This document shows positions 1,258 to 29,605 of a DNA stretch of 64,000 nucleotides, one piece after another. Made by a program: the position numbers and the translations under genes. The DNA is taken from contig JAJEKV010000003.1 in assembly GCA_021234155.1 (NCBI GenBank), forward strand, positions 29,867,166 to 29,931,165. Reading direction: 5' to 3'. The notes beneath the pieces are model-generated. The model ran no database searches. It was given only the letters and a program-made list of their open reading frames with translations, and had not been told where the DNA came from. Origin of the DNA: Isoetes taiwanensis (Eukaryota > Streptophyta > Lycopodiopsida > Isoetales > Isoetaceae). Position 1 is the stretch's first letter. Every line of letters starts with the position of its first letter.

Positions 1258-1302
1258 TTTTGAGGTCCTACCGAGATCTCTCCCCTGGTAGAGATTACTC
1301 GA

Positions 1303-3477: not shown

Positions 3478-3759
3478 CAAGTTCTATTACATTACATCAG
3501 ATTTGCCACATTGGTATGCTAGTGCGGTCATATTTGAGCACTTGTTGGATCGTGGCTTGTTCTTTGGCCACACTTTTTTGCTGTTATTACATGCTTTGAG
3601 CATTCTCCTATTTGGAAGATGCTTACTTGATAGAATTGGAGTTGGTTGAAGCATGCATCCATCCAAGAATGTAGTCCAAGGCAAGGCATTGCTCCTTGAT
3701 ATTACATTAGCATGTTGATGGCTGAGAAGACCAGCCATTTTTCTTGTTTTGGCGAGTTC

Positions 3760-3965
3760 ACATCACACTCACACACTTCTCACTTCATTTGCACACTCAC
3801 ATTCCATATCTTCCATCCCATACTCATCATGCACTTCACTTCTCCACTTACTCCATCATCCACATTTCATTCACATTACATCTCCACCACACTCATACTC
3901 ATTCCATCATACATACACTCCACCTTCATTTTCACACATCTCTTCTATCACATTTTCACTCAGAA
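3760..3965 (+). repeat. CA/TC-rich low-complexity stretch
   Basis: A run dominated by CACTCA, CATTC and TCACA words, with almost no G, lies between the gag-like relic and the 3' LTR. The open frames across it are composition artefacts. Confidence 0.6.
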
Positions 3966-4141
3966 GCATTGGTTTATGTTGAAGACCCCTCTGGATTGCT
4001 CATTTAGATATCCTATGGCTGAGTGGACCAGCCATTTTCTTGTTTTAACGAGATGTTGCCCCCAAAGGGCAACATACATACTAATCATTGGTTTATGCTT
4101 GAAGATTAGGTCAAAGTTTGGAAGACCTTGATAGGGGACAT

Positions 4142-5976
4142 TGATGTTGAAGTCAAATTTGGGAAAAGAGAACTTATTTTGAAGTCAAACTATGCACTAG
4201 AAAACTCTGGGTTGACTAAAGATTGGAAGGCATTTTTTGAAGATTGGAAGTTCAAAGTTTGGAAGACCCCATGGTATTTGATCCCATTCCCTAGCCATTC
4301 TCACTCATTTTTATTCTTGCCCCTTGAAATTTTCTAGCCTTCTTTTTCCCTATATCTATACTCCCTTTTGTTCACTCTTGCATACCCTATCATATCTTGC
4401 CTAATTTTTCTTTCCCAATACATCTTTTTTACTATATTTGCCAAGGTGATCATCCTAAATATTTCTTTATCCACATTCTCCTTTCATTTCATTACCATTA
4501 AGATATTTCTCTATCATTACCCATGCACATCCTTTTGAGTTCCCACTATTCTATTCTTTCTTACTCCATACTCTCTTACTCTCTTGGATCCCATTTGTTT
4601 TCTTCTTCTTACCCCATGGTGACCATTGCTTAAGGTATTTGTGCCACTCATTATAGCCCCAAATGGACCTCAAACTTGAAAAATCACATGGCTATAGTTC
4701 CTCATGGTCCAAATTGCTAGATTTCCATATTATAATTGAATTATCCCTAAAAGACCTTGTCTGAAATTTCTAAAAGGCCAAAATACGGGCATATTCGGGC
4801 ATATACTCCTCAAAATACGCAAACCGTATCGCGAGTTTTGCCGGAAAATACGGTCTTCGACCCTAGGATTTGGAAATCTGCTTATATCCCGCCGGAATTG
4901 GATCCTACCGCTCTGTAACTTAACTATTCTTGGATTCCTCCACTTAAGCAACACATTAAGCCTAAAATCATGGTCTGTAATTCCGGAAACCTCAAAATCG
5001 AACCTACATACTGTAACGAACGTGGACAGACATTTTCGAAGGCCCAGAAGTATTGAAGCGTCCATTACCATGGCAGTGCATGATTTCTTGATGATCTCCA
5101 AGCTATCTGAGCATTCCTTAGCCATTGGCAATGATTCATGGCTAATATTCTTCCATAAATTATTTTCCCAAGATTTTTAACTGAGTTTATTGCTTGAATA
5201 GCATGAACACAGTATTATTATGATTATTTGATTGATACATCAATGAAAATCCCCTGTCAAGTTTGGAAATTTGATCTTTCATTATTTCTGTAACTTTTTG
5301 CCACCAAAACATTGTTACAGAAGCATTTTTCATGATTCAAACTACTATTTTATCTTTTGCACATGCTTTTAGGCTCTATTCAGACCTGTGACAATTGAAA
5401 TCATGCAAAAATACCTTATAGAACTCAAGATACAAAAATTTGCTTGCTGTTTTTCTGTGACAGTTCAACGACAGAATTTTTTGATCGACTTTGAATCCTT
5501 TTTTCTCCCTCATACCAGTTCCAAATCAAGCCAAGTTTTTTTTCCACATGTACCTACAACTGTTTTCTCTCATAGTCATTTCAAGAATCATACAAAAGGA
5601 TCAGTAAATCTCGAGATATCATCATTTGAGTGTGCAGACCTCATTTTATCTCAGGGAAGTGCACTGGCCAGATTTTCTGTCAACTTTGAACCCGATTTTC
5701 TCAGCCATTCCAGATCCAAATTGAGTCAAGTTTTTTTCCACATATCACCACAACTTTTTTCTCTGATTTCTCCTTCAAAAATCATTTGAAAAGGATCTGT
5801 ACATCTCGAGATATTCATGTCTGAGTGCAACTGCCTTATTTTTCTTCAGGGATCCTAAAAGTAATTGATCTTTTCTTGCAAATTTTGCACCAAGATTGGT
5901 TGCCTTAAGCAACCTGGAGGTCCTAACCATGTAGGCTCCATTGAGGTTGGTCCAGGTGCCAGGTTTTGGATCAACA
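4142..5976 (+). repeat. 3' LTR
   Basis: This is the full-length counterpart of the 5' LTR. The match to base 1 begins at about 4208; the proposed start near 4142 follows the purine-rich GATAGGGGACA and is only a guess. It retains the 513-bp block (4392-4904) missing from the other copy. The right end is TCAACA at 5976. Confidence 0.65.
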
Positions 5977-6335
5977 GCATGTATCTCACATTACTTATTG
6001 TTCAAACTGTTACTAGCTTTTTTGTTTTCAAAAGCAGTTTCCATACCTGTTCCGTTCCATTGTTTGTTCCTTTTCGTTGCAAGGGAGTCTCATCTAGCCC
6101 TCTTGCATTTTCTCAAAATGCATAACTTATGCAAGGGCACTGCTTGAAAAGCAACTTCCAGCTTTAAGGGCTTAACGTTATTCAGCATCTTTTTCGATGA
6201 GGCACCAAGGGTTTACTTCTGGTCATTCTAGACAGGGAGCAGCACTTCTCAAGCTGAAACCAGGACACGAGAATTCCATTCCACAGGTTGCCGACAAAGA
6301 AGAAAGAATTCTCCTTCAATCCCTTCAAATAGGTG

Positions 6336-6760
6336 TTAAACACCATCATCTTCATCTTTAACCTGTAGTTCCCTTTTTGTACAAAATGCCTCTAAGGCTA
6401 TCAAGTATTTCTGAAGGCCTTGAGGGGAGGAAGACATCAATACAAACATCATGAGCATAAAGCAAGATTGGGATGCATTCTTGTGCAAGCATGGAGCCTG
6501 CCCATCAATGTAAAGTCCACATAAGAGGGAGAGTGGACAGCCTTGCTTAACTCCAATGGTGCGCACTTCCTCCGACCATTGACCTATATCATTCTCACAA
6601 AAAGACAACACTGCCCAAATCAGCTTATGAGGAAGTCCTAGTACTTTGAGTTTATGAACCAAGGAAGGCCTAGTACTTTTAGTCTATGAAACAGTCCTTT
6701 CCAAGGAACCGTATCAAGACTTTCACAAGGCTGCAGCATCTACTGCCATCCATGAAAAAT
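6336..6760 (-). pseudogene. LINE reverse-transcriptase fragment
   Basis: Read on the minus strand the segment contains the plant L1-type RT passage VKQGCPLS...GLYIDG, followed by LMSSSPQGLQKYLIALEAFC and TKRELQV. The catalytic YADD region is damaged: ML-MF replaces the expected residues near the middle. A further piece upstream (about 6690-6760) resembles the preceding RT block. Only about 110 codons are continuous, so this is a relic. Confidence 0.75.
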
Positions 6761-7745
6761 AAGCATCTCACTTCATGTTGCCTTCCTATCTTCATTAGCT
6801 GCAGCATATATATTTGATAACAGCACATATACTGCAGATTTATTTGGATTCAAAGAAGCACCTTACCCCGTGTAAGGGCCTGCGGCGAACCTTATCTCTA
6901 ACATAAAACATGGAGCTTCAGGGATCCATAGCTGTTAACATCTCACATCTGGAGTTTTTTCCTTCGATTTACCATCTCTATGAATATCTAGCTCTACTCT
7001 TAGCCGGATACACAGATAAAAAGAGGATTCCAAGCCCTGTTTTGATGCTTTTGTCATGGCTTTAAGGTCTTGGCCGCATCAATGGGACCGCCCCTTTTGG
7101 GGCAGAGCACTTAATCGGGAAACAAATAATCCCTATTTTGTTCATTTAGCATGAAAGCAAAAGGCTTTAGGAAAAGAGACATTGAAATGGATGAAGAAAA
7201 ACTCTGAGACCTTTTACTCCGGCAGACTTCTTCAATTTAGGTTTTGATGTTCCACTGCATTCAACAAGCGGAGTTGTTCCAATGCTGGTTGTTGGGCCGG
7301 AACTCCAGAGAAATCTTCTACCCTTTCTTCAAGCAGCAAATTTCCATCTGATTTTAAAAACAGGGATAGATTCAGAACAACGGGTCTTTTGCCAAAGTAA
7401 TAGATATGCTGATTTGGGGAGCTTATCGATCTACAGCAAGCCCTGCCAGTTACTCGTTGGAGCATCCTGGATCCAGAATGCAGGTGTGACCGAGAGTTTA
7501 CAGCGAATAGTAGGTTTGGAGCAGTCATCAACATATCCTGGGTATATCCTGGCATATACCTAGGATATGCCATAAACCCACATAAACAAGGGTTTGCCCC
7601 CTAGGGGCAACCCAAAAATATTCCAATGCACGGAGAAAAAATAAAAGGAAAGGGTGAAAAAAAGAAAAGAAAAGAAAAGAAAAGAAAAGAAATATAGCTT
7701 CTTATGGTGTTCAACAGGTCATAGCCGCAGGGGCAGCTGGAGGCC
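6761..7745. other. Intergenic region upstream of the TRAP-beta gene
   Basis: No gene is supported here. A short A/G tract of repeated AAAAG units lies at about 7653-7693, some 55 bp upstream of the TRAP-beta start codon and probably in its leader or promoter. The direct word GATATGCC/CATATACC recurs around 7530-7570. Confidence 0.5.
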
Positions 7746-9243
7746 ATGGAGTTCAAGGCGCTCAGTTTGCTGTTTCTAGGTTTCGTTGTTTCAGCCCAGC
7801 TTCTTTTGATGATAGATCTAGCTGCCGGGGAAGGTGCATTTTTGTTGGTGGATAAGAAGGCGGAGTTCAAGAAAAGAGGGAAGGCAGGATCTGAGCGAGT
7901 TGTCGTCTCTTTGGCTTTGCATAACGCCGGATCAAGGTACGCCCCTTAAGGCTTTACTATTTGAGATGGATCAAACCAAAACAACCTAAAACATGCTAAA
8001 GTTACACATATTTAGTCTCACAGTTACGGGTATCTATTCAAGTCTGGTGCATTTTTTCCAAAAGGAAAGAGCATACATCTGTAATTAAACATGAATTCGA
8101 CAGTGATAAGATTAAGATATATTTCTTTCATAGGACAAAGAACAGTTAAGACCTGCAAAACAGATAAAGTCGATTAAAAGTCCTCATCTTGATAATCCAT
8201 CCTCTGTCTTCGCTAATCCATCTGTTCCTGTTCTTCATTTTCTTCATCAAAACTGCATCTTCTTTTTTTAAAAGTATAGTGCAGGGGTTCTGACTTCATG
8301 TCCCAGACCTTTTAGTGAATGCGTGAAGCCTCAAACCTTACTTTGTAACTTGAACAGGAAATATAACTGCAATGGGGAATTTGTGATTCTGTAATATTTA
8401 ACTTGCATCATTGCATGTAACTCATGTTCTTCTATTCTGGATAGTCTTAAGCAAACGGATATTTTCTGCTCGTCTTTCTAATTGGCTTCCACAACTGCAG
8501 CACGGCATATGATGTGAGCTTAAATGACGAGAACTGGCCAAGTGAAGTCTTTGGTTTGGCAAGTGGAAATACCTCTGCTGCCTGGGATAAGCTAGAAGCG
8601 TAAGTATGGTATTAGCTTGGTATATTCAAGCATGCATATTAATATTATGTTGACTGCCCTTTCCAGTGGGGGATCAATATACCACACATTTATTCTAGAG
8701 TCTAAAGTAAAGACAGTATATTATAGCAAGCCAGCTGTTGTTAAATTTCGGATGGCTGCAAAATCCAGTTTTCAAGTAAGTATGCCTTAACCGGAAGGGT
8801 TCATGCTTTTTGTCCTGATTATCTTTTCTAAACTGGAATTGCATCACTTTCAGGAGGCTCTCTCTACTCCGTTACCACCACTGGACATACTTTCTGACAA
8901 GCCAAATGAGTTGAAGTTTGATTGGGTAATTATATTATTAGTTATGAATGCCTTTTTCCTTCTATAAATTTCCATGGCACTAAGATTGTTTTGTTGGTGT
9001 ATGACATATTCATTATGATTCCTTGAACAGTTAAAGGTAAGTTACTGCATTTTTCATTTTGATGGCTAGCAGTTTTGTTGCAGTTCTGAAAGATATAGTT
9101 TGTTTCCACTTTATATGCAGGAACTTGCAATAAAGTATGGACCCCTTGCTTCAGTTTTATCCCTGGTTGGTGTATTTGTCTACTTATTGGTGGCTCCTGC
9201 AAGCTCAAAAAAATACTCCAAAGCTAGCAAGAAGAGGAGATAA
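7746..9243 (+). CDS. Translocon-associated protein subunit beta (TRAP-beta / SSR2), six exons
   Basis: TRAP-beta is a single-pass ER membrane protein of the translocon-associated complex at the Sec61 channel. Exons by splice signal and phase: 7746-7936, 8501-8599, 8667-8775, 8854-8925, 9031-9036, 9121-9243. Together they make 600 nt, 199 residues plus stop. The product has an N-terminal signal peptide (MEFKALSLLFLGFVVSAQ), a lumenal domain with NAGSSTAYDVSLND, STPLPPLDIL and KFDW, one membrane span (PLASVLSLVGVFVYLLVAP) and a lysine/arginine-rich cytosolic end, SKKRR, typical of the family. All introns are GT-AG and all phases close. Exon five is only TTAAAG (Leu-Lys), and with it the spacing from the FDW motif to the KYG motif equals the family length. 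The start is the first ATG before the signal peptide. This looks intact and functional. Confidence 0.93.
9031..9036 (+). other. 6-nt microexon of the TRAP-beta gene
   Basis: TTAAAG is bounded by an acceptor (CTTGAACAG) and a strong donor (GTAAGT). It adds Leu-Lys in phase 0 between exons ending GAT TGG and beginning GAA CTT. Skipping it would keep the frame but remove two residues from a segment of constant length in TRAP-beta. Confidence 0.8.
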
Positions 9244-11640
9244 CCTTGCTTCTAGTTGTTGGGAGTCAGAATGGCTCTACAATGGGAGAGAGTTGAAAGC
9301 AGCACGTGTTGCTAAACATTTTTGCCTCAATGTCGGAATATGAGTTTGTTAGTTTAATGATTTCAGATCTTGTAATATCATAACAAGTTTAACTCTGCTA
9401 AGTTGGTAGGTAAGTGTGTGCATTCCTGATCTGTCTAAGAAGATTTGATGTTGGGAAAATGTAAATAGGTTTATGCTTTGCTGCACTGATGTGGATGCCA
9501 CGCATAAGAAAGGTTAACAAACAACAGGGGATGAATTATGCTTCAAAAAATCAAGCTGCGGCGCATAGCTTTTGATTTGAGCTTGAAAACGAGGCTCTTT
9601 AACAATTTATGTTGGCTTTTAAAACTGCTAGTCATGTTCAAAGCCTGGATAAAGTAAAGGTGAAGGATAGAAAAACCAGCTATTGACGGTTTGCCATTAC
9701 CTCTTGGTTTTCCAGTGCCCGAGCATATTTGATGGTTGGAGTCACCGCTGTGAAGTAGAGTTAGCTATAGTTCTCAATTCCAACGGTTGATTAGCAATCA
9801 TTTTTAGCAAGCACTTTAATGGAGAAATGATACTGTCAAACAGATGTCGCTAGCATCTAAGCTACGAAATACATTAGTCCATGAAATAAAAACATTGTAA
9901 AAACGCATGAAATAAAAAAATGTAAAAACGTCTTTTAACATTTACAATAAAAAACGAGTTGAAAAACGGCATCATTTTTTGGCAAACTAGTTTTCTTTTT
10001 CTCGCTGGCCAAAAATCTATTTTCGGCAAAACCCTAACTGCGTATTAGAGAAAACGGCCCACTTTTTTGCCTCAGAATCTCCATCTCTTCCACATCCCAA
10101 TTGTTTTTTTCCAAGATTGGTTTGCATGGCGGGATGATCCTACTCTTTGTTAGCAGGTTCAGATGTAGACTAGCCATCAATGTAATTTCTTGTTTGATGT
10201 AACCCCTTTAATCTACTTTCTAGCCATCAATGTAATTTCTTGTTTGATGTAACCCCTTTAATCTACTTTCTGCATCTCTACATCCAATTCTGGCATAAAA
10301 ATACTCGTAAAAAATACTCGTTTTTCTATGTATTTCTGAAGCTCTAAATTTTTTTTACAAACGTTTCTCATAGCTTAGCCTGGAATGGAACATTTGTTTG
10401 CCTTTATCTTATGACACTCCGTAATTGACAAAATTTACAAATAGAGACCTCACTCTTGCATCAATGTGCATTCCATTTTCACATTTCTTCAAAATGTGAG
10501 GTGGTTCTAGCTAGCTCAACGTCGGTACTACCTTAAACTAGTGACATGCCTATGCAGTGGCTTGACATGCCTACTTGGATACACATGCAGTGTCGAAGCC
10601 ATCACAGTCATGCAAAATGCCTTATCGCTTTTCGATCTAGCAAGGCAAAACATGGCATGTTGGAGGCAATTGCTGCATGTAGACCTCCTAGGTTGACTAT
10701 TATTCGTGATGGTCACGAATAATAGTCAGCCTTTTTTCGCCGATGACTCCACTCACGATGCTCAATGGCATATGTAATGCTTATTGTAGACTTGCTAAGC
10801 TTCCTAATTAGGTAAAACCTTGTGACTACGATTAAATGGTTTAAATGTGTGTTAAGTTGTTAATCTTTCATGTTCTTTAAGGTTCATGTGAAACAATTTT
10901 AGTTAATTGACATGGTTGTTCGTATCTTTCGATGTTTTTGTTGTCATGCCTACCAACATACCACCAGGAACATTTCTTTGTTTTTATTTACTTGGTGCAA
11001 AAATATGATAATGTTCGTGCAAAGAATAGATAGTACAAAATGCATGCATATTCTTCCATGTAGATTTATATTTCACTTACCTGGAACCATGATTATGCCT
11101 TGTGTTCTTGCAAACATCAGTATTCATACCTAGTGATTCTAGAATTTTAGTAATTCTCAGACTAGTTACTTTGCAAATGTATGGAATTGAAATATTAATG
11201 GAACCATTCCGATCAATAACAATGTGCATTTTTTATAAGGGTTGTGATAGGTCCAAGATTGGGCCTTTTTTAATTGTGTCATGTTTGGTCACTTGAAGGT
11301 GAACTGCTCAAAACTAGGCATTGAAATTTTCTGTCATAACTGTGATGAGTGTGGCCATATCTCCTAATTGCTCTAGTCCAAAGAAAAACAATAGAGTTAG
11401 GAGCATTAGTGCAGTGGATGTGGTGGCAGAGGAGAGGAGCTGGTTGGAATCGAGCAAGAGATGTTGGACGTGTTACAGTGGAGCTAACATTGCTAAGGAA
11501 GTTGCTACTGAGGGGAAAGAAATCGATAAAAAATGTTTTTGAGAAATGAAAACAAGGTTTTGGGAAGACGTGCAGGCAATTTGTTTGGATTGAATGCTAA
11601 ATGTTTTTCTAAAGTTAACTTGGTGACGTTGCCTTTAGTT
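9244..11640. other. Intergenic region with small repeats, no gene seen
   Basis: The 3' flank of TRAP-beta is followed by AT-rich sequence. It holds a 50-bp tandem duplication at about 10171-10271 (unit starting TAGCCATCAATGTAATTTC) and an almost perfect hairpin at 10691-10731. Short open frames at 10912-11542 show no recognisable domain. Confidence 0.5.
10691..10731. repeat. Short near-perfect hairpin followed by a T-run
   Basis: The arms GGTTGACTATTATTCGTGA (10691-10709) and TCACGAATAATAGTCAGCC (10713-10731) pair at 18 of 19 positions around a 3-nt loop, followed by six Ts. It could be a minimal foldback relic. No function is shown. Confidence 0.7.
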
Positions 11641-15250: not shown

Positions 15251-17170
15251 TTTTCCTACTATCTCAACACAGGTCCACTGGCTTAGAGCAACAAGGTTGG
15301 CAACTTTAAACCACTATTGATGTTATTGCATGCATAGCAACGTTTGTCCTTCAGCTCAACACTGAAATTTTGAAGCTTTATTAATGAAATGGAGACCCCC
15401 ACAAAGGCATCACCAATAGCTTGTCCATTGTAGCAGTGCATGGGATTCTATAGTATAAGCACACCCTCACCAACAATTCCTCTACTGCATTGACGATGCA
15501 AATTCACTTTCTCATCCTTCCATGTTAAACTAGAAACCACTCATTAGCAGGAACTAGTTTTTTAGCATTATCTATAGTTGCTTTAGGTGGTTTCTCATTA
15601 TTGTTTGCATTATTCTCTTCCACATCCATGTTGTCCACATCATCCTTTTGTACTTGAGGTTCTTTATTACAGTGTCCCTCTGTAGTAGCTTCGTAAGAAA
15701 TCTGAAAAGCAAAAGAGGGCATGAAGAACAAGTAGTAGTGTATGCTATAATAAGTAATTAAACATTTTTCATAAAAAGCATCTCGCGCTTGGCGCAATGC
15801 CTAATTTACTAGGTTAGAATTTCAAATCAAAACTAACCGCATTGCGTGCGACTGAATGCGCGATACGTCAACACGTTAAAAGTATATCAAATATACAATA
15901 GTGTGCCAAATAAAACTTCTCGCGTGGGAGAGTGAGTCAAACTAAATAATCCAATATCACATATGCAAAATGGATTCATTGGTAATCTGTATACTGTACT
16001 GCGTTGCGCACGACTGAAAGCACGACACATCAAAAACTAAGACACTTAGATATCTCCTCAAGCATTACAAATACCTCGTCCCGATTCCACTATGTGAAGT
16101 TGTATTTGCGCAGTTACTCTTTGCACAATGGGTTACACAACGGAGTTCTTGGAGGTCGACGCTACTAATCATGCTCACATCCATGATCAAGACTTGGAGC
16201 TGATCCTGGGACAAGGCACTTCTAAAAGATATCCCAAAATCCACCTTATTTAGAGATTTCGTCAGGTTGATTAACAGGTTCGGTCATGTGATTCTAGCCC
16301 CTGAGCAAAGAGATTTCTCTAGAAGTGCCACATTTGCAGCGGCATGCTTATCAGATGCCCAGATCCATGCATTTATTGCTGAAGTAGTGCTGCATGCAAC
16401 TTCTTTTATGGACATCAATTTTGTTTTGAGCCATTTTGATGGAGGCTCTTAAAAGTTACTATTGGAATGCTAGAGGCTAGAATGAACTGTCTTCTGCTAA
16501 TGACTAATCTGGACGCAGATAGACGGGATTATTTTGTTCAAAGAACAGTAATAAGCACGAATTCATTAATTAGAGAAATTTGGAATTCTCGTTTAGCATG
16601 AAATAGGTTAGCGGGTAGCCATATAGTGCAAAAACTACTACCAATTGAGTAAAAGTTGGCGTTTTTTTGCACAAATTCTGCAAATGCTTCAGTCTTATTC
16701 GGAAATATAGTTTTTACTGCTAATGCAAAGGTTCACCGCGAGTATAACGTAGTAGGAGGGAGTGTGAAAACTTCTCGCAAGAAGCGCGAACGCGATGTTT
16801 CGCAGCTGAAAGGAGACGAAAGAATGTGCCTTTTATTAAAACCATATGAGAGCATTGTGTTAAAAGAAGGTACCGAGGAGCAAGGATATCACACAAAATT
16901 CAAAGATTTAAAGCCATGTAATTGTTACAGGGATCGTGGTCGCGATTATTTTTAGCATTAAACATATGGTAAAAGATATGGGTAAAGACAAAACCAAAGT
17001 TTTCAAACAAAAATTTTCATTGAAGGAAGTAATATACAACATAATTACCGATTGAAGGAGATAATTATTCTCGATTGTGTTTCGATACTTGATCGTATCA
17101 CACCCATTTCATTGGCCATGCGATTGACATGCTCTCTACCCAATTCAATAGCTTGTGTTGTGTCCATCTC
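15251..17170. other. Flank between the two DUF7869-family loci
   Basis: Copy 1 may extend to about 15797 (acidic open frame on the minus strand with VQKDDVDNMDVEEN). Beyond this the sequence is rich in CG-containing words such as TCTCGCGCTTGGCGC (15780), CTTCTCGCGTGGGAG (15915) and TTGCGCACGACTGAAAGC (16003). A plus-strand open frame at 16656-16955 (99 codons, basic centre KTSRKKRERD) has no recognised domain and may be chance. Confidence 0.4.
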
Positions 17171-20100
17171 TCAGATAACCCGCGGACCTCTCGAATCCCG
17201 AACACCCATGGCGCTTGCGATGCACCTGCAGATGTGAATCAGGCTCCTATTCTTCACCGCCTTTAACGACCGCTCCCCGCCTATAAGTTCGTTTTGGCAA
17301 GAGTCTCCTGTTAAGAGTATTCGATATGGATGATAGAGCTTCGCTTCTTCTTTGTGTAATGATGCTCCCTGTGACCCAAGAACCTCATCTTGGTCAATGT
17401 CCATGTGCTGTTGGTCTGCTTCCATGTGCTTTGGGTCTGTTTCCATGTGTTCTACGCCCACGTATTCAAACTTATGTTCGCCTGTCAAGAAAGGCATGTA
17501 CCCATCAAGCTTCTCATTAAGTGCATTCAATTTTTGGAAAGTGGGCTCCAGGGCTTCTATACCTTTTTCCGTCTCTTCAAGCAAGCGCTTTGTTTCTTGC
17601 ATTCTCTCTTCGTAGGACTTAGCATCGAGGTTTTCCAAAATGGAACCCAACTTTGATAGATCTGTGTTTTGGGTGATACTGATGTCGGGTTGAGCTGGAT
17701 CAGGGTCAACATTCTCTGCTTTCGGCTCTTCCTCAAACCCATCGGCACTTGGATTGGCCATCTTATCAAGCGTTTCAAAGAACGCCCTCAGGAAACGGCA
17801 CACTTTACCTGAACTTTCGAAAGCCACGCTCTTTTTGCCTTGCATAAGAGCAACACGAGAAGCCGTCCCAGCCGAAAAGAAATCCAGAACACAACCATCA
17901 GTCGGCACCAGCTGTTCAACAATATGGTAGGCATAGGAGGTTTTCAGCTGGCATTTCAATACAAGATCTCCTTCCATTGCCGCCCATTTGAATCTTGGTT
18001 TGCCTGTAAAAAGAGTCTGATATTTCTTTTTTATCTTCTCGTCGGCATCCTCATTACCTGTTAGCGGCATTGGAGGCAATGGTGTTGACTTAGGAGCCTT
18101 GCCGCGGTGTGGATATAGGTGAAGCTCCAACTCGGGTTGCCGCGGTGCTACACCTAACATCACTCCCCATAATGCACATATGACTAATAAAGTACTGATG
18201 TTCTTTCACCCTTCTTTTGCTCTCCCATCCCATTTCTTCATAGGAACCTAAAGATAGGTAGCCACCGCCCTGAATTTGCTTCTGACTGAACAAGCAATTG
18301 GGCAAATTCACTGAGCGCATGATAATGACCAAGTGATAAACTTTGGCATCCGTCATGGTAGCTATCCTTGTAAATAGATCTGTGTATTTCTTGCAATCCC
18401 ATACCTTGTTTATCCCTCGGATGTCAATAAATATCAGTGTCGCATTCTCTGACACTTGGGAGGAAGTAGGGATGCCATCCTTTGTCACTGCTATGACAAT
18501 ATTTTTCTTTTCCTTTCTTTTTCTAGCCTCTTCTTCTGGCTTTAGAATATTCCTGATTGGCTCCAAAAAGGCTACAGGTAGGTTACCTAGTGTATGATCC
18601 TTGTTATAGTTAGCCTTCACGCACTCTCGTGATATCAGATTCCGATATATCCAAAGATTCTCTGCTCGTTGAAATCGGGAAAAGCCCGAAGCAATTCCTC
18701 CCACCTCGGAAATCCTTTTTGCGGCAAATTTGAGGCATAAGACAAAATTTCGCGCCTCATAAAAGTGAGTGTTCTGATGTCAATTGCCCGTTATGCGCAA
18801 TCAAATCTCCCGCTATAACTTGATCGCACCTTTAAATAGGTCTTGCCTTCTATAATCTCATCGAAAGCAACAGGACAACTCTGCATTCGACATACCTCGT
18901 AGCAACCGAGCCGTCTTGTTAAAGAAGTCTTTGGATGGCTTTGTCCGAAACTCACCATGATCGCCACCGAGTTTCTGACTCACCCACGAGCCGGCAACTT
19001 CCATTAACTTCTTGAAAACCTTCTCATCCATAAAAATGAATTGCTTTTCATCCTTAAGCTCCCCGCACTTTCAAGGTGGTCGTTGCAATTTCATGGAAAT
19101 CCTGCAGAAGCAATTTCAAGGTCATCAAGATCAGCGGCAATGAACTTGGCAGTAGAAAACAAATAAATACCTTCCAAGCTGAAGTTTTAGCCGTCCCTAT
19201 AGGTCCTTGTGGAGGGCAACCATAAGCCTTGTCTTTGATGACGGTTGTTGCGCTTTTCAATCGGTGGCTCTCAGTACCTGTTTTGCAATTACTTCGTTGC
19301 ATTGAATACTCAACTCTATATATTCCTTTGTTCAGAAGATTTCCGTTCAAAGACCCTCGATCTTCTTCTAGCATATACTGTTGGCAAATTCGTTCTTTGC
19401 TCGAACTTCGCCGGCAATCGAACAAAGGAGTTGTGCAAAGACAAATACCGTGGGTGCCGAAATAATATAAAATTTCTTGCCCTTCAAATCTTCCGGATTG
19501 CTCCATGTCACCCTCCTCCTCAAAGATAGACAACCGTCGGGTCAAATCTACATAACGAAAGTGTCCAAAAGATAAAGAATTAGTTACCGGTAATAGGGTC
19601 AAACGGAACGACGTCAAGCGGGGTGAGGACCTCTGTCCGGGTATGTCTTGAAGCTTTTAACCGAGTTTGAACATGGTCATTTGACCGCATTACGTGGTGT
19701 CAAGTTTGCTGGTGCGGGTTCACAATCAAAATAGAAATCTTTGTAAACCAATTAACCCCTAAGGGGTAGAACCTTTTGAACCGTGTTCAAGCTTCGAGTG
19801 GTTTGCTCTGCCATCTTCGCGTTCCTCTTGAGATTGAACTTCAACTCGACCGGAATGGCAGGTGCTTGGGGCCATGTCAATGCTAGTTTAGAGGAGGCAT
19901 TAAATGTGAATCGAGGGGGTTTTGAGAACTGGCTGGGCTGGGGCTATCCTCACGAGGTGTCGATTCTTAAGGCTAATTTTGAAAGGAGGGAATTTTTTGG
20001 AATAAATCCACCGGATGTATTGCTATCTCGGGCCTTCATAGCAATAGGAAGAGTAGGGTTAACAATACCGGGAGGGGTTTATCGTGGATTGTGGTTCTTG

Positions 20101-20690
20101 AGCAATTTCTTTTGGTGCCGAGGTCTCTCCCAAAGTAGCAATAGGCTTCACACTTTTTTCTTGGCCACGGCTCTTAGCCAATTGGTGTCCATCACGGAGG
20201 GCATCTTCTCCCCCGAACCGCTTTCAAGGCACAAATGGAGGCTTCTTGTCGTAGACAAACCATTTCTCGCATGTCGAGAACCCCGAGCAATATGTCTCTG
20301 TTTCCCTTTATACCGACAAAGAGAGATTCATAGGATGGCAACAACCAGCCATACCCCTTAGCCGACGGGGCGTTTTTCCCCCCAATATCGGCTTGTTCAT
20401 TTTGGTCGGGCGTCATCAAAGACGGGTCATAATTGCGCCATTTCAAAATGTACTCCGAAACCGCAATGCTTGTGGGTCCTCAATGCCGCATATGATGGCA
20501 TCTTGCACATTGTTCTTCGTGCCTTCCCACATTGCCACCACTATACCAACTTGTTCAACGCCCTCGGCTTTTTTCCACCAGCTAAACAGTACATGTCCCT
20601 TTCTCGCGATCACCCTTAATGTGCGGTATAGCCCAGTGCAATCTCGATACACCATTTCCTTTCATTGGAAGGGGTTATAATACTGGACCG
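17171..20690 (-). pseudogene. Methyltransferase-like gene, multi-exon, probably damaged
   Basis: The largest open stretch (17171-18163, 330 codons) contains at residues 83-117 the series QLVPTDGCVLDFFSAGT and ALMQGKKSVAFES. This has the layout of the FxGxGT SAM-binding motif plus following strand in N4/N6-type DNA methylases (usual form DPFSGSGTT...GR..IGIE). The rest is charged, coiled-coil-like, with a short HMETDPKHMEAD-type repeat near residues 240-260. Upstream pieces on the same strand read RGINKVWDCKKYTDLFTRIA (about 18380-18430), a SWVSQKLGGDHGEFRTKPS segment (about 18930-18990), GWLLPSYESLFVGIKGNRDI (20260-20350) and GHVLFSWWKKAEGVEQVGIV (20530-20600). The PSYESLFVGIKG motif also resembles such methylases. 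No DPPY/NPPY catalytic motif was found. Introns and frame breaks were not fully resolved. Activity is unproven. Confidence 0.5.
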
Positions 20691-20839
20691 GCTCGACATC
20701 CGGTCCTCGGAAGAGAGCAAGTCTCAGTAAACAAAAGCTCAGAGTGAGTGCCCGTAGGTCGCATAATGTGGTGCAATAAAAAGGTTTAAACTATCAGAGA
20801 GAAACGCTGACCACGATCCCGCCAAGCAGCTAAAATAGA

Positions 20840-22570
20840 ACTCCACACAATCGCGACCGCGACTTTGTGTAGCACTTAAGCACGACAAGAAAACATCGCT
20901 GTCGCGAAACTAATGACCTACTACACTAGTACTGATGAACATCGCAATAAAGAAAATCTATGCTCAGCCATGATGAGCAGCTACACTTATGAAGACCGCT
21001 ATCTGGAAATTATAAAACCAATCAAGCAAGACCGCGGCCGCGATCTTGATGAGCAGCTACACTTATGAAGACCGCTATCTAGAAATTAGAAAACCTATCA
21101 AGCAAGACCGCGACCGCGATCTTGCTGAGCATCTATACTTATGAAAACAATAGAAGTTCTAGTAGGCAAGATCGCGGCCGCGATCTTGCTGAGCTGAAAT
21201 GTTAGAAAATACCTTCTCTGAGGGAGTCCTTAGGTGCCATGGGATCGCTGGGCCGGGTTCAAGATTTAAATATGGGTTTTTTTTGAGTGGGCCTGGGAGC
21301 TTCGGAGGTCGAAAGCTTAGGCGCTGAATGAAATCGCGGAGTAGAAATTAGTTTTTGAATGTTTTGAGTTTCAATTTATAGAACGCGGCCGCGGAAATTA
21401 AATGCCCGCCCCTCATGATGGCGCTGCGGAAAAAACGTGCCATAATAATGGCGTCGTCTGCACGGGCAGTAATAATTACCGGCCGGCCGCCCGTATTTAT
21501 TCCCTGACATTAATGCGGTCGTGCGAATATACCCGTCCGGAAAGGCCAGTAACCCGTACGAAAGGTCTTTATCCACTTGGACGTCCGCGTTCAATTTCGG
21601 GTCATAATTTCGGACCTGACACTTTATCCAGCCATAAATGCCTCCAAAATATCCGGTTTGGGACGGACAAATGACCGCAAAATTTGAATTCGAGAACAAA
21701 CCAATTCGAGAAAGCGGAAAAGCCAATTCAAATTTCATTGTTTTGCAAGATCTTCGAGGCGCCGAGTCAGCGCCTAAAGCCGGGCCAAGTTTGGGCAAGG
21801 ATTTGCCGCAGAATTCGCGATCCATTGAAGGCGCCGACGAGGGCGCTGATAATCCGCTTGCAATCCGCCACTACACACTCGAATTCTGCAACTGCATCGA
21901 ATTCAGGGTTTCTGCCGAGGTAAAAGGCCTATTCTGATGCATATCCCTCACCGGTGAATCAACGCGTATCGAATGCAATCAATTTCAATTATAACCGCAA
22001 CCTCCGAAGCCCCTCGCACTAACATTCACTATGTATTGCATGGATTGATAAGATACCTCCCCGATACTTTGTTGCAACTATGTAAAAATAGATGTTCTAA
22101 GCAAGACCGCACTCACTCGTGTGTTTATTATACAATGTAAACGTGTTTCAAGTATATGCTTTCTTTCTCTATGTGGATGAAACTAAACACCGTTTTTATG
22201 ACACTAAACACCGTGATTCGTGAGGTAGGAGTAATGCCTTATTCGTAAGTCAATCGTTTAACTTTGGTGCTCCCACGAGATCGCGGTCGCGATACCTTCA
22301 ACCATCTACACTTGCTATTGACCAAAGAACTCCCGGATATCGATAACTTAGAGTTGAACCCACTAGCTAGCCTCGAAATTTGATTTGCACGAAGTTCTTA
22401 TTGAAACAAATTTAGTGTGAATGCTTGCAACTAAGCGCGACCGCGTTCTTACCCATGCTCGATAAGATCGCGGTGGAAAGTCGTGACCATTTCTTATTTT
22501 TCAGTTCATATTTTTGTAGTGGTTTATGATCCACGGTGCTTTCGCTCACACTAGGATCGCGGCCGCTTAT
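20840..22570. promoter_or_regulatory. Palindrome-rich region between two divergent genes
   Basis: Many near-palindromic GC-rich words centred on CGCGGCCGCG or CGCGACCGCG occur here, e.g. around 20847-20870, 21028-21048, 21103-21124, 21167-21187, 22280, 22437 and 22556. They are rare elsewhere in this AT-rich window. The region lies between the minus-strand methylase-like gene and the plus-strand DUF7869-like gene, where a shared promoter or binding array would be expected. That role is inferred from position only. Confidence 0.45.
20972..21190 (+). repeat. 76-bp tandem repeat, about 2.9 copies, each with a palindrome
   Basis: Units start at 20972, 21048 and 21124 with (T/C)GAGCA-CTA-ACTTATGAA and end in CAAGACCGCGGCCGCGATCTTG or a variant. 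The first two units are almost identical; the third is shortened in the middle (about 63 bp). The palindromic end (AAGAYCGCGGCCGCGATCTT core) is the best conserved part, which suggests a repeated protein-binding site rather than neutral duplication alone. Confidence 0.8.
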
Positions 22571-25500
22571 TCACGACCTCTTGTTTGGAGGATGGCTGAT
22601 GTAATTCCATTTGTACCAGATTCCGCCGGGGAAAAAGGTGGCGGAAGGAAGAGTCCACAATTTCGAGCCCATCACAATTATTTGTCCCGAGGGTATGGTT
22701 GTCGTTTCAATTGTGAATGTTCGATGGACAATTCACGCTACCAATTCCCCGAATTGGAAATAGAAAGAATGGGTGAAGTCGTGGGGACTTTTGTGTTGTG
22801 GTACAAGAAGGACATTGTTGCTCCACTAGATAGACATGAGGAAGCTTTGCACCCCACCAGTCGATAAAAAGGATAGACCGGGGGTGACGAGGGAATGAGG
22901 GGTTAGCCACTAATGAGACGAATCATGTGCAAGGGCTTTCTAGAGATGAGTTAGTTGAGAAGGCGTGCACACTCATGCATGAATGCTGCTACATGGCTTA
23001 TGCCTATGGTGTTATCGTTTTTGCCGATCCAAACCATGCTGTGTCTGACGTGAAGTTAGGGGAAGGCTCGATAGCTGCTACTATCATGAACATTTTTCCA
23101 ATGCCTGAAAAGATCTCTATGCGCTGCCAGGCCTGTGCAGAAATGCCCCAACTGCATGACCTTGTGAGATGGCCCATAGCCCTCGTGGCTCGTTGATAAC
23201 ATTCCGCTTTCTACTCTTGTGGTTGCGGTGAAGGAGAAGGATGTGGAGAATGAACCTTACTCCATTAGACCCGAAATTGGCATCACCAAAAAGAGACCTT
23301 TACAAAGATGGTCAATCGGAGACCCGAGAACACCCAAAGCCGCGGACTAAATGTGAAAGAAAAACTAGTGCCGAGGCTATTCCGCACTTCGTGTCATCAC
23401 CGTCTTTGCATGAAACGATCTTTTGTGCAAATTTTACATCCCAGGAGATAGCTTGCATGAGAACCTTTTACTGGAACATGAAGTCCTCGGAGCGCACAAC
23501 TTTTGCATATAACATGCTAGATCTTTGCTCTGAAAATGGTGTAGTCCGCAAACTGATGTTGAATAACAAACAGGTGTGCGTGAAAGCATGGCATAAAGCC
23601 TATGGCATTCCCATTTCCACTTTTTACAAGTGGAAGAAGCTCTTCAATGACGGCCACAGAATTGCTGAGCACGGAAATACTGGGTCTAAGAAGCCAAGGT
23701 CTCATACTTTGGCTGGCAATGCTGTGCTATCCATGTTCATAGATGAAAACGCAGAGACGATGCCACACCGCTCGAAAATTACGAGCGAGGGTCACAGACA
23801 AAATGTTAAGAGGCTACCTTCAGTCTTGACTAAGAAGGATATACACCAAGAAGTAGATATTTCCGTTACAGAGATGACAGGCAAGCATATTTCTCCTTCG
23901 TCATTTCTGTCTGCTTGGAAAGAGAATCATTCAGAGGTAGCAATAGCTAAGAGGATAGCATTTTCCAAGTGTAACACCTGTATTGTCATAAAGGAAAAGC
24001 TTGCTAAGACCAGAGATCCAAACGAAAGAAGGGTACTTGCAATAGAGAGAAAATCACATATGACGGCCCAGATTTCATGCGAGAGCCTTTACCGGTCCCG
24101 GAGAGCTTTGTCGATAGATCTCCCGAGCACGCTTTTAACCATTATACATGATAAGATGGATCAGAATAAGACCATGGTCCCTCGCCCTAGAGAAGCTAGC
24201 AAAGTCTCGTATGGAGGGGTGAACGACTGAAGGTCAGTGTTACAGGTGCTCTCATGCACGGCCATGGTATAGGTGCCTTGGGCCACTTCTCACTGGACCT
24301 CTGGCCTGATGATTCTAATTTTCATGTGGGATCCTTGAATCATACCTTGAAGACACTGGAGAATAAATCTGAGGATAATTGGGGGCCATTTGAGAGATAC
24401 CGATCGTCCCGAAAAGCAAACCGGTGCGGCAATTTTAAACACAGATAACCTTAGGACAAAAATGATGAATGGCAGTAGAAATGATTTTATGCCTCCTATC
24501 AAAGGCCCCATGGTAGCAAACAAGTTGCCTAGGAGGCTTTACTTGCAGCTAGATAATTGCTCAGGTCAGAATAAGAATAGATATCTTTTCTCTTACTTGT
24601 CATACTTGGTTTGGTTAGGTGTATTTGATCAAGTGCAGCTGGGATTCATGATGGTTGGACACACCCACGATGACATAGATGCCCTATTTGGAAACTACTC
24701 TACTCTAATGAGAAGATCAGATGCATTGACTATTCCGGAGCTTATGCAACTCTTCAGGCAGTGTAGTTCAAAGGCTCCTTCACCTTACCTTGTGACAGAG
24801 GTTCCTGATTGGAAGGAATTCGTGAAAGGATTTATCCCTGATAAGAAGGACCGTTTATGTGGTCACTTGGAACCTCTACTCTTCAAGTTTTGCATGAAGG
24901 ATGGATGGCCACTAATGTTCTACAAGATGAGGCCGTGGCATAGGGAGTGGCTCCCCTGAAAGGGAATCGAGAATGTGGAAGGAGGATGCCCAAGGTTTAC
25001 CTATGATTCCGAGAGGGTCACCTAAGGTCCTGCAGCCATATGGGAGCTTGAAAGATATAGGTGCATTAAGAGCTTCTATTGCCAAGTACATGATGCACTG
25101 GGCAGCTATTTCTAGAGCTGGCGATAAGTCATGGTCCAACACATATATGAATGAAGTTATTGACTACTGGGTCCACCTTCTTGCTGCGAAAGTGTTTGGT
25201 GACGTGCGGCCCTAGAGAGTCATTCAGATTTCTGGCCCAGCACCAGGCAAAGTGCATTGGAAGAACCCGAAAGAGTGTTTGTGGATGAGCACATTGAAGC
25301 ATCTCATTACGTTGGGCCTTTCTCGGGTAGACCCAAGAACCCAGTTGAAATATTCGACCCCTACCAAGATGTCAAGAAGGGAATGCTCTTGCTAATCAGA
25401 CCACATGATAACTGCCCGACATGGATGGCTTTTGCCGAAGAGGACCCAGTAGAGGACCCTAATCTCCCACATTATGAAGAGGTGTTTGTCTCTTGGTTTG

Positions 25501-25730
25501 AACCTGCTGCCAGAAAGGGAACCTCATATGCAATGCAGTATAGGGATTGTTGGAGCAAGAATTGGAGACCCAATCCTAATGACCCGCCACGCTACCAACC
25601 TTTGAAAACAATAGACTATGGTTGGGCCGTAGAGACCAGGCCATTGTCGATGGTGATCCCCAAAGAGTGTTCGGGCTCGTTGCAAGAATTAGTGGCTAAA
25701 GAAGCTAAGGACGATGATGAGAACTCTTGA
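22526..25730 (+). CDS. DUF7869-like protein, copy 2 (possible RNase H-fold transposase-like enzyme), frame-interrupted
   Basis: In order: N-terminal segment (22526-23196), basic linker with ITKKRPLQRW (about 23270), a helix-turn-helix-like GIPISTFYKWKKLFNDG (about 23605-23655), FSKCNTCIVIKEKLAK (about 23960-24005), TIIHDKMDQNKTMVPRP (about 24140-24190), LDNCSGQNKNRYLFSYLSYL (24549-24608), GHTHDDIDALFGNYS (24657-24701) and a C-terminal domain with VFVSWFEPAARKG and YRDCWSKNWRP (25257-25730). The three Asp-bearing motifs at regular intervals resemble a DDE/D catalytic triad; this is my inference. Frame changes near 24225, 24380, 24957 and 25210 fall in or beside G or C runs, so assembly error is as likely as decay. 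The copy at 12.9-15.3 kb shares all main motifs. Confidence 0.6.
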
Positions 25731-25879
25731 GGTATGCAATGCTCTTTTACATAATTACTATATCATTCATAACATGAAAGTTACAATAGACTAGTTATTA
25801 TTTGTTACGCTCTGCATTTTCCATCTCAACACAAGAGCTCTTACACTATACAATGCTAAACAGTGTGATTCATTCATCT

Positions 25880-26135
25880 TCGTGATCCGTAGTAGTGATC
25901 CCCGATATCTCATAGCTCATTCGGGCCGTAAGCCAAATCAGATGGATCATTACACGAAATTGACGCAGGGCAACGAATCTCGGCCGAGCTTTTTTTCTTC
26001 GCGGTAGGGATCAAGAAGAAGATGCCCGCTAGGCAACCAACAAGATCGAGTGGCTCATTGAGCACTTGATCGCCTCGATGTGGTGAATTGATGAAGGCAA
26101 ATAATCCATGTGAGAGGAATGAACTTTAGCCCCGG
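25880..26135 (-). pseudogene. Short unknown gene, copy A (frameshifted)
   Basis: On the minus strand an ATG near 26112 begins MDYLPSSIHHIEAIKCSMSH, matching the N-terminus of copy B (PRPEHIRSFKCYLSYNDL). The C-terminus reads MIHLIWLTARMSYEISGITT and ends DHEDE, against VKVHISWLPRSEIYELNGIT ending DVDDE in copy B. The middle is joined only by a frame change and reads differently. A TATA-like CACTATAAAAGC lies about 45 bp upstream of the ATG, and its flank is a diverged duplicate of the copy B upstream sequence. Confidence 0.6.
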
Positions 26136-26483
26136 TGAGAAGCTTTTATAGTGAGGTAGAATTATTGAGGTGAATTATTGGGGTAGACTTCGCCCATTAT
26201 TGCTCGTGTGTATAAGACCGTTGTATAAATACAAGTATAATACATCTTTCGTATGGATATATGTATGCGTACTAATATCGTATGTTTCAAAACATGTTTG
26301 CTTGACGAATTTAGCTATGATTGAATTCAATGACAAATGCGTAATAAGTGGAGGTGGGATAGCACATCGTTACAATATACTCAGTTAAGATACGTGATAT
26401 TACATCCTTAATCAGAATGCTATTACATCCTTACTTAGTTATTATGTACCCATGTCATTATTACATTATTAGCAGGTGCAGAT

Positions 26484-26729
26484 TCACTCGTCATCAACAT
26501 CAAAGCTCGTGATGCCATTCAGCTCATAGATCTCCGATCGGGGAAGCCAAGAAATATGGACTTTAACGCGAAAGTGAGCTTCCCCGCAAGCACTAGCGTG
26601 TCCATCAGCTTTAGATAAGAGCCATGGATCAAGCTTAACGCTACTTCTAGCGCATTCGCCCAGATCGTTGTAGCTCAAGTAACACTTGAAAGAGCGGATG
26701 TGCTCTGGACGAGGCATCGAGGAAGCCAT
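26484..26729 (-). CDS. Short unknown gene, copy B (81 aa)
   Basis: An intact 81-codon frame begins MASSMPRPEHIRSFKCYLSY and ends SFDVDDE. Key shared residues with copies A and C: a Pro-x-Pro-Glu-(His/Asn)-Ile start; Cys then (Leu/Met)-Ser-(Tyr/His)-(Asn/Asp)-Asp-Leu; an Ala-Arg pair; an (Asp/Glu)-x-Trp-Leu; and a strand like VKVHISWLP. There is no signal peptide, membrane segment or zinc motif. The upstream minus-strand sequence has TATA-like CACTATAAGAAC about 60 bp before the ATG. I do not recognise the family. Position beside the DUF7869-like gene suggests, but does not prove, that it belongs to the same mobile unit. Confidence 0.6.
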   Translation of the reverse strand: MASSMPRPEHIRSFKCYLSYNDLGECARSSVKLDPWLLSKADGHASACGEAHFRVKVHISWLPRSEIYELNGITSFDVDDE

Positions 26730-27416
26730 GGAAGATGAATGGCCTCTACGCCCTCGTGAAGCCGTTCTTATAGTGAAGTAAAATTATTGATGTGAATTAT
26801 TGGCGTACAATGTAGGGCCATTATTGAGCTTATACGAGTGTCATGTACACGTACAAGTATAACACAAAATTTGTATGTATATGTGTATGTTAATTACCTC
26901 ATGTTTGTTGGGGTCGAGTACTAGGTGAAAGTATTCGTGCTTGAGCAAATAAGGTGTGCTCAAAATTCTCAAAATTGCGTTATTTTATCCAATTAATGAA
27001 ATCATGCTTTAATTATTGAACCTGCACCACAAATATTTCTTTTTATTTCGCGGCTATATATTTTTTTACTTCTCGTGCCGAGCGCGGGTATCTATATATA
27101 ATGCATTAAGCCATTTCTAGAGTGGATGTTTTGAGACTCTAGTTACTATACATATAAATTTTCTTAATTAGAGCTTATTACAGTCTATTTTCTGTACATA
27201 TCAGGTTATAAAATTATATATCTCGTGTCCGATGCGAGTTGGACTGCATACTTAAAGGAAAAGCTCGCATCTTGATATCTAATTATATGTAAATATGTTT
27301 ACTGTTTATATTAGATTTTGTTAATTACCACATGAAAAATACTACCACAGAATACATACATGTGGGTACATTGTACTCAATAATGCAGCTACTAATTGGT
27401 ATAATATACATGCGCA

Positions 27417-28799: not shown

Positions 28800-29605
28800 T
28801 TGCTTCAGCGCCTGAGGGTGCCTGGGCGCCTGCCTGAGCCTCTCCTGGCAGTGATGGATGGCGCCTAGGCCCCGGCGAAGATGGATGGCGCTCGAGGCGG
28901 ACCTCGGTGCTGAGCACCGGTGCATGCACAGGCGAGGCGCTGCGAGAGCATGCTTGTGGCTGGAGCACCACGATGGAGCAGGGTGCTGGCGCTTGGCGCG
29001 GGGGCTGGAGGATGCACCTCCTCCGGCGACTTCTCGGCGTTTTCCACGGCCCTTCTTCCACGGCGCTGGACTTGGCGCTTGGGCTTGTGGATCGTTGGTT
29101 TTCAGTTTCAGCGGTGCCCTCCACGGTCCACCGCCTTTACTGATCGTTGCTATGGGGGTTTTGGGACTCTACGTTTTAGGGGCAGCTCTTATGGTCTAGT
29201 GGTTTGATCGAAGTTACTCGAGTCGGCACCGGGATCTCTGCATCGGCATCTATTTGCCACGGTTTTAGTGAGAGGATGGAGGTTTAAGCTGCGTGCATGA
29301 GTCCGCACCCGGTACTTCGGCACCTAGGCGTGAAGAGGTTACGGTTGGGGCGTTTGTTGAAGTTACGTTTGTTGGAGGTATGCTTGTTGCTTTTTGCAGC
29401 AGCATAGCTTTTTGGATCTGTGGTCATCATGGCAACGGTTTTTCCCCAGTGGGGTTTTTTAATCCGGGCCATGGTGCTCACGGGCTTCGGCCCATGCAAT
29501 GTATTTTTGTTTTCTTTGTACTTGTGGTCGCATGTCCTTCGTGACGCTGCCTTTGTGGTGCGACGTAAAAATATACTTCCTTCCTTCCTTCCTTCCTTCC
29601 ATTTC
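28800..29605 (+). mobile_element. GC-rich retroposon with (CTTC)n tail, copy 1
   Basis: This segment has an inverted second copy at 49.3-50.1 kb. It contains GGTCTAGTGGTTTGATCGA, reminiscent of a tRNA-like pol III A box. The later shared part runs from GTTGGAGGTATGCTTGTTGC to GGTGCGACGTAAAAATATA and then a CTTCC microsatellite tail (29576-29600). A simple-repeat tail fits a SINE or a LINE 3' end. The open frames across it are not conserved between copies, so they are not taken as genes. Confidence 0.7.

Follow-up and report, generated by a model that had tools for sequence, protein, structure and literature searches.

Isoetes taiwanensis DNA transposons pair a predicted DUF7869 transposase with a divergent methylase-like gene and carry family-specific palindromes

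Introduction

Sola1-1_Ec32, a DNA transposon of the brown alga Ectocarpus, encodes a ParB-like and N4/N6 DNA methylase protein on the strand opposite its transposase, and the passage of PMC12477816 that describes it also mentions green and red algal cases and proposes that proteins of this kind bind the element encoding them and modify it. Sola elements in general, as characterized in the pertinent part of PMC10741241, use DDD transposases, generate 4-bp target-site duplications (TSDs) and occur in moss, while a 4-bp TSD is likewise given for Sola2 in the excerpt of PMC3627910 concerned with it. Fungal DNA transposons have captured TET/JBP dioxygenases, according to the section of PMC12730594 devoted to them. 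The present study concerns a stretch of 64,000 nucleotides of the Isoetes taiwanensis genome (C1034:29867166-29931165, termed the window), which holds a decayed copy of a transposon with a DUF7869 gene, predicted to encode the transposase, and a methylase-like gene on the opposite strand, the two diverging around an array of palindromes.

The Isoetes elements resemble Sola1-1_Ec32, as presented in that passage, in that a putative ParB-like/methylase protein is encoded opposite the transposase within a DNA transposon. They differ in belonging to a plant, in measuring about 8-10.5 kb compared with 21.5 kb and in falling into several families; they are further set apart by palindrome arrays peculiar to each family and by a clade whose methylase is degenerate, a distinction drawn from the published description and not from sequence comparison. 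No paper on family-specific palindromes or a degenerate clade in such elements was found, in searches that reached few subscription papers. The fungal TET/JBP transposons, as portrayed in the section cited, are comparable in bringing along a DNA-modifying enzyme, presumed to oppose silencing; theirs is a dioxygenase borne by other transposase superfamilies, whereas the Isoetes enzyme is a methylase. An earlier note, made from the letters of the window, had suggested an undescribed transposon type. Both genes do lie in one transposon, but because a ParB-methylase opposite a transposase has already been described (in the passage of PMC12477816 above), the suggestion is only partly supported.

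Limits and class of the element

The window copy is a DNA transposon with terminal inverted repeats (TIRs) that extends from 16553 to 27009 (10,457 bp) and is decayed. The left TIR (16553..16578, + strand) begins AAGCACGAATTCATTAATT, an end common to L029, L031, L032 and L033, and the right TIR (26984..27009, - strand) was located by copy alignment and a scripted end search. The direct repeat TAAT flanks the copy as an unstranded 4-bp TSD at 16549..16552 on the left and 27010..27013 on the right. A TIR search on the window alone scored 34 at best, where 40 shuffles reached at most 32, and could not decide the ends, which were therefore fixed only by aligning other copies; the top-scoring pair of the window-only search was later shown to hold the real TIRs. 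The earlier note had placed the unit at 17171..25730, thereby including both genes in one unit that the TIRs and the 4-bp repeat reveal to be larger.

The scripted search covered 23 copies from three families, and exactly 4-bp direct repeats flank 11/11 copies with both TIRs (five of the window family, two of family B and four of family C). For the other 12 copies, the retrieved sequence lacks at least one end, and they were dropped from the TSD count; they include L019, where ACTA was observed by eye on either side. Besides TAAT in the window, the TSDs are AGAA, TACA, CTTA, GTCT, AAGT, ATCC, TTAT, TTAA, AATT and AATG. In the 11 copies the TIRs match over 19-30 bp and element length ranges from 7,978 to 10,457 bp.

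Two classes were rejected as candidates. CACTA/EnSpm elements have CACTA-like termini and TSDs of 2-3 bp, and the 11 copies display termini of AAGCA or AACA(A/G) with 4-bp repeats. KDZ (Kyakuja-Dileera-Zisupton) elements have an 8-bp TSD, and none of the repeats in the 11 copies is longer than 4 bp. Sola elements have TIRs of at least 11 bp and mostly measure 2-9 kb, with some exceeding 15 kb, ranges in which the TIRs and lengths given above fall. The likeness to Sola, as far as the passages cited in the Introduction describe that group, lies in the 4-bp TSD, the DDD motif pattern and the size range, and is one of features and not of transposase homology. Both genes lie divergently inside one unit bounded by TIRs and a TSD in copies of several families, and the locus is probably a single decayed member of a high-copy cut-and-paste DNA transposon group closest to Sola.

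Pairing of the two genes and copy number

The genome searched comprises 1,658,258,908 bases in 1110 contigs. With the window proteins as queries, 10,736 first-look candidates were obtained for DUF7869 and 3,109 for the methylase-like open reading frame (ORF), counts of which only the best candidates were scored. Among the best 119 methylase and best 150 DUF7869 matches, 34 pairs lie at most 15 kb apart, the window included, and all 34 are divergent; as both lists hold best matches only, the pair count is at least 34 and unpaired matches are uninformative. The gap between the genes is 6.1-6.5 kb in 21 of the 34 (full range 3.9-10.6 kb), and random placement gave a mean of 0.31 pairs with a maximum of three in 2000 simulations. 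Similarly, in 17 of the 20 loci that were selected for their DUF7869 score and open frame, ParB-like/methylase exons lie upstream in the opposite orientation. Within the same copies, both genes are enclosed by the element ends, the left one on the far side of the methylase gene and the right one past the DUF7869 gene. Since the pairs are uniformly divergent and the ends fall outside the gene pair, the two genes travel as one TIR transposon. The earlier note had proposed that further copies be sought and their edges aligned, and both steps led to this result.

Three loci speak against such linkage. In L011 and L013, the 10 kb retrieved contains no second gene; these one-gene copies fit truncation, and solo copies may exist, most matches in both lists being unpaired. 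L016 has a window-clade-like methylase gene on the same strand as its DUF7869 gene, an arrangement that lends some colour to the notion of two unrelated elements adjoining by chance. This notion is scarcely credible in view of the divergent pairs, their narrow gap range and the position of both ends in the same copies, and the L016 arrangement probably represents two neighbouring elements. At that locus, a degenerate-clade methylase gene with its own palindrome (CGCAGCTGCG core) occupies 1089-4983 and adjoins a family B DUF7869 element at 5579-9835 on the same strand.

The earlier note also raised a host-defence-like module, and in outline a methylase, a nuclease-like protein and palindromic sites do resemble a restriction-modification system. 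The thousands of first-look candidates, the TIRs, the 4-bp TSDs and the decayed copies identify a mobile repeat and not a host locus, making a defence or restriction-modification-like module very improbable.

The DUF7869 gene

The DUF7869 gene (22520..25730, + strand), the predicted transposase, is broken into about seven frames, as judged from Pfam and the reading frames. The fragment at 24351-24956 (+) matches PF25273 in Pfam at E=1.1e-38, and the domain match itself (24516..24932, +) holds the LDN Asp (24552-24554) and the HTHDDID Asp residues (24669-24680), while the first Asp motif, HDKMDQ, is read at 24147..24164 (+). The three spaced motifs of the earlier note, HDKMDQ, LDNCSGQNKN and GHTHDDID, are thus all present, and the D, D and HTHDxxD motifs are invariant in DUF7869. 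The helix-turn-helix (HTH)-like segment that the note had seen corresponds to a match to PF13384 at 23577..23654 (+), which falls below the cut-off (E=0.0062). Identity of the DUF7869 core to family D is 53-64% in families A, B and C and 27-29% in L039 of the window clade.

A low-confidence model of the DUF7869 core has the strand order of an RNase H-like fold, as the earlier note had anticipated. Against this stand the poor quality of the fold models (pLDDT 48.9 and 43.6) and a Foldseek search on them that returned nothing at E≤0.001. A PDB sequence search with DUF7869 gave nothing meaningful, no relatives were confirmed in viral and prokaryotic collections (weak evidence of absence, since few short patterns were used), and no paper on DUF7869 was found in the literature searched. 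DUF7869 has the marks of a DDD enzyme, and we infer that it is a DDD transposase.

The C-terminal DUF7869 part lies at 25203-25727. In the L023 model, the corresponding residues 911-987 are strand-rich and better predicted (block pLDDT 62-84), and Foldseek weakly matches the C-terminal end of L023 to a BAH domain from plants (E=0.18). On this model, the part could perhaps be a chromatin-reading domain.

The methylase-like gene

The methylase-like gene (17171..20661, - strand) is also broken, so that the two large divergent loci of the earlier note exist on either side of the palindromes, each split into several frames. Evidence for it includes hhalign homology to the PF01555 exons of sister families. 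Reading frames on the - strand give a C-terminal part with the degenerate S-adenosylmethionine (SAM) motif VLDFFSAGTAS (17174-18205), a part in which DIRG replaces D(L/I)PY (18093-18779) and, at 18861-20661, the middle and N-terminal parts. In Pfam the window ORF matches no methylase (best Perilipin at 0.019 and DUF713 at 0.15), and a PDB sequence search with it gave nothing meaningful; similarly, the 657-aa exon of L032 matches no methylase family in Pfam, only DUF713 at E=0.06. The methylase identity of the window gene is therefore owed to sister-family homology: in a pairwise hhalign comparison, the sister PF01555-exon profile matches the window clade at E=6e-5 with a probability of 65, over 71 columns and only around the SAM motif. 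The N4/N6-methylase-like SAM motif of the earlier note holds through this link, the motif itself being degenerate. VLDFFSAGTAS is found in six window-clade loci (L033 is misaligned at this motif), and D-x-R, not D-x-P-Y, is found in 7/7 aligned loci of the clade (six of the window family plus L016). The catalytic motif of the methylase is lost in the window's clade.

The sister families present a different picture. In families B and C, the C-terminal exons give PF01555 matches of E=2.3e-13 and 2.1e-17, and a profile of these exons matches, in the PDB, the adenine methylases MboIIA (1.3e-10), CcrM (2.2e-8) and RsrI (5.7e-8), as well as DpnA. Phage methylases match at 28-33% identity among the 12 listed of 729 records. 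The family B and C methylase thus resembles phage methylases and beta-group adenine methylases such as MboIIA, CcrM and RsrI, and differs from the bacterial and phage enzymes in being spread over several exons inside a eukaryotic transposon. The catalytic motif D(L/I)PY is displayed by 11 of 13 aligned loci of families A-D, all 11 in A, B and C; this stretch is degenerate in L026 of family D and ambiguous in L012.

Upstream exons of the sister families hold a GG(T/N)HS region at which weak ParB-type matches recur at one place: TIGR03764 in 3/8 members (best 0.0021), DUF6551 in 5/8 (best 0.0061) and phrog_723 at E=0.018. The weakness of the ParB assignment means that it leans also on the published ParB-methylase case. 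No ParB-like relatives were confirmed in viral and prokaryotic collections, where the few short patterns searched give weak evidence of absence. From these matches, the opposite-strand gene would encode an accessory protein, a ParB-like/N6-N4 methylase derived from prokaryotes or phages.

Purifying selection acts on both coding regions in most estimable comparisons. The ratio of nonsynonymous to synonymous substitution rates (dN/dS) is at most 0.21 in 6/8 estimable pairs of methylase exons across all families and 0.13-0.32 in 10/14 estimable pairs for DUF7869. For the window-clade exon it is 0.21 between L032 and L034 and 0.79 in the close pair L032 and L031, comparisons with L030, L033 and L029 having saturated dS and giving no estimate.

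Palindrome arrays

The palindrome region between the genes (20852..22567, unstranded) contains 10-bp cores, with at most one mismatch, at 20852, 21033, 21109, 21173, 21384, 22282, 22436 and 22558. The sequence CGCGRYCGCG occurs seven times in the window, always within 20852-22445, and never in 100 shuffles. The earlier note had placed the palindromes in the space between the genes, as is true of the seven exact cores; an outlying degenerate copy with two mismatches lies at 16932..16947 (unstranded), past the 3' terminus of the methylase-like gene.

Each family has its own palindrome of 14-22 bp, given here as a consensus in which outer letters were kept at 50% or more. The window family palindrome, AAGATCGCGGCCGCGATCTT, is present at 44 sites in seven loci (at most one mismatch in the 10-bp core), that of family B, CGGTATAAATTTATACCG, at 168 sites in seven loci and that of family C, AAGTGTATTCCGGAATACACTT, at 84 sites in seven loci. 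The remaining consensuses are CTATGCGCGCATAG for family D (13 sites, one locus), GTATGAATTCATAC for family A (14 sites, two loci) and AAATGGCGCAGCTGCGCCATTT for family E (14 sites, on the methylase side of L016). A single copy holds up to 35 palindromes (L012). Among spacings below 130 bp, 75/132 in family B measure 28-32 bp, 35/48 in family C measure 40-43 bp and 11/19 in the window family are of 64 or 76-77 bp.

Families A-D have in common TAT-N6-ATA with a 6-bp centre that is different in each, and the window family and E have in common CGC-N4-GCG. The split between TAT/ATA and CGC/GCG arms appears to follow the two protein clades, on a reading of consensuses that for D, A and E derive from one or two loci. 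Exact cores are nearly absent outside their own family: ATAAATTTAT occurs twice in A and four times in L016 (a locus with a family B DUF7869 side), ATGAATTCAT occurs once in the window family, and no other case was observed. Genome-wide, GATCGCGGCCGCGATC has 362 places, GTGTATTCCGGAATACAC has 2585 and a scrambled palindrome none. Of 50 listed GATCGCGGCCGCGATC places (from the 362), eight lie within 8 kb of one of 269 methylase/DUF7869 matches and the other 42 do not, the chance being about 0.003 per place.

Most palindromes occupy either the intergenic region or the intervals that separate methylase exons, presumably introns. Only 11/323 fall inside protein-matching stretches: 5/44 in the window family (24.2 expected), 4/168 in B (69.8), 2/84 in C (40.8), 0/13 in D (4.7) and 0/14 in a further set (6.7). 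In the eight copies measured, the distance between the left end and the first palindrome is 385-4303 bp; on the other side, more than 3.4 kb separates the last palindrome from the right end in 7/8, the exception being L022 at 414 bp. Conservation, tested on six copies per family, is higher in palindromes than in spacers (0.866 vs 0.701 in B, 0.808 vs 0.579 in C and 0.750 vs 0.612 in the window family), and 0/300 circular shifts reach the observed value in each of the three families tested.

Proposed role of the palindromes

The element would express a transposase from one strand and a DNA-binding methylase-like accessory from the other, with private palindrome arrays between and within the genes. 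A dimer encoded by the element, with the ParB-like/methylase protein as the likeliest candidate, is predicted to bind the palindromes; its binding or methylation may mark the element's own DNA or control a shared promoter and thereby help its copies to escape silencing. The symmetry of the sites, together with arms constant within a clade and centres peculiar to each family, recalls the sites of a homologous dimer with diversified specificity, and the ParB-like/methylase protein is favoured as the binder because the arrays also occur among its exons, away from the element ends. For the window clade, binding without methylation would be the likelier mode, because the active site is lost, the palindromes are kept and one of two estimable comparisons indicates protein constraint; this retention suggests that recognition is the shared function. 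The arrangement as a whole may be a self-address system, an idea put forward tentatively and at less than even confidence: a captured ParB-like/methylase protein, its specificity diversified together with the family-specific arrays, would find and mark only copies of its own family, in the manner of a parS array or a solitary methylase, one clade having dropped methylation and kept recognition.

Further to the loss of the catalytic motif, several observations weigh against this proposal. The ParB matches are weak (best E 0.002-0.02 per library), unrelated families equal or beat ParB on two members (CAC1F_C at 0.00078 and IgA0_D2 at 0.00095), a PDB search with the ParB-like exon profile returned no ParB, and the matching exon of the window clade aligns to the sister ParB-like profile with an hhalign probability of 0.5, which is no support. 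Values of dN/dS of 0.41-0.85 in several pairs (DUF7869 in L031, L028, L018 and L024; methylase in L031 at 0.79, given above, and L019 at 0.55) are what decaying copies would give, and 15/37 dN/dS pairs are saturated, without an estimate. Palindrome conservation may be inflated, because sites were picked by consensus match and neighbouring repeats can cross-align. The support is drawn from sequence comparison, and palindrome binding and methylation are put forward as a proposal.

Alternatively, the DUF7869 transposase could bind the palindromes by means of its HTH-like segment, either to assemble a transposition complex or as a repressor of its own promoter, the methylase-like protein having another role. 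The sub-threshold PF13384 match, the position of palindromes upstream of the DUF7869 start and the fact that palindrome class tracks the DUF7869 clade too are all in keeping with such binding, which is nevertheless rather unlikely: apart from L022, the palindromes avoid the ends, where transposases usually bind, and they cluster between methylase exons. Host-factor or structural sites, such as an insulator, a hairpin or an expression element, would require no element protein and would agree with perfect inverted repeats that are nearly all non-coding. A host factor is expected to impose one sequence, however, whereas the palindromes differ by family in one host, keep constant arms within each clade and have exact cores almost absent from other families, rendering this explanation improbable.

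Other features of the window

At the right end of the element, two stretches (25873..26729, - strand) match a small protein typical of the right end of the window family (tblastn, best E=1.07e-43, with a query translated by eye); among the loci tested, this protein matches only the window family (E≤1e-4). Two related stretches at 26103-26267 and 26723-26889, 72% identical and about 620 bp apart, sit near both matches inside the same end. No Rfam match was obtained in the window at the gathering threshold.

Elsewhere, direct repeats of about 1.08 kb at 183-1257 and 4902-5976 are 98% identical, have open frames between them and look like the long terminal repeats of a retrotransposon. An inverted pair of about 640 bp (28981-29600 and 49319-49953, 90% identical) is probably another repeat family. 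Open frames at 61542-62373 resemble a zinc-type alcohol dehydrogenase and are probably a host gene, whose product we take to be cinnamyl-alcohol-dehydrogenase-like. Outside the window, the family C copy L028 contains retrotransposon-polyprotein-like frames, recognized by eye, at 4060-7559, with a 97.6% identical direct repeat on each side.

Significance

The passage of PMC12477816 on Sola1-1_Ec32 names no target site for the methylase, and the Isoetes families each provide a candidate palindrome. With several families and different palindromes in one host, the question becomes testable at defined sites. If the proposal is true, these selfish elements would possess a DNA-recognition code that diversifies, and their degenerate clade would test whether recognition alone suffices.

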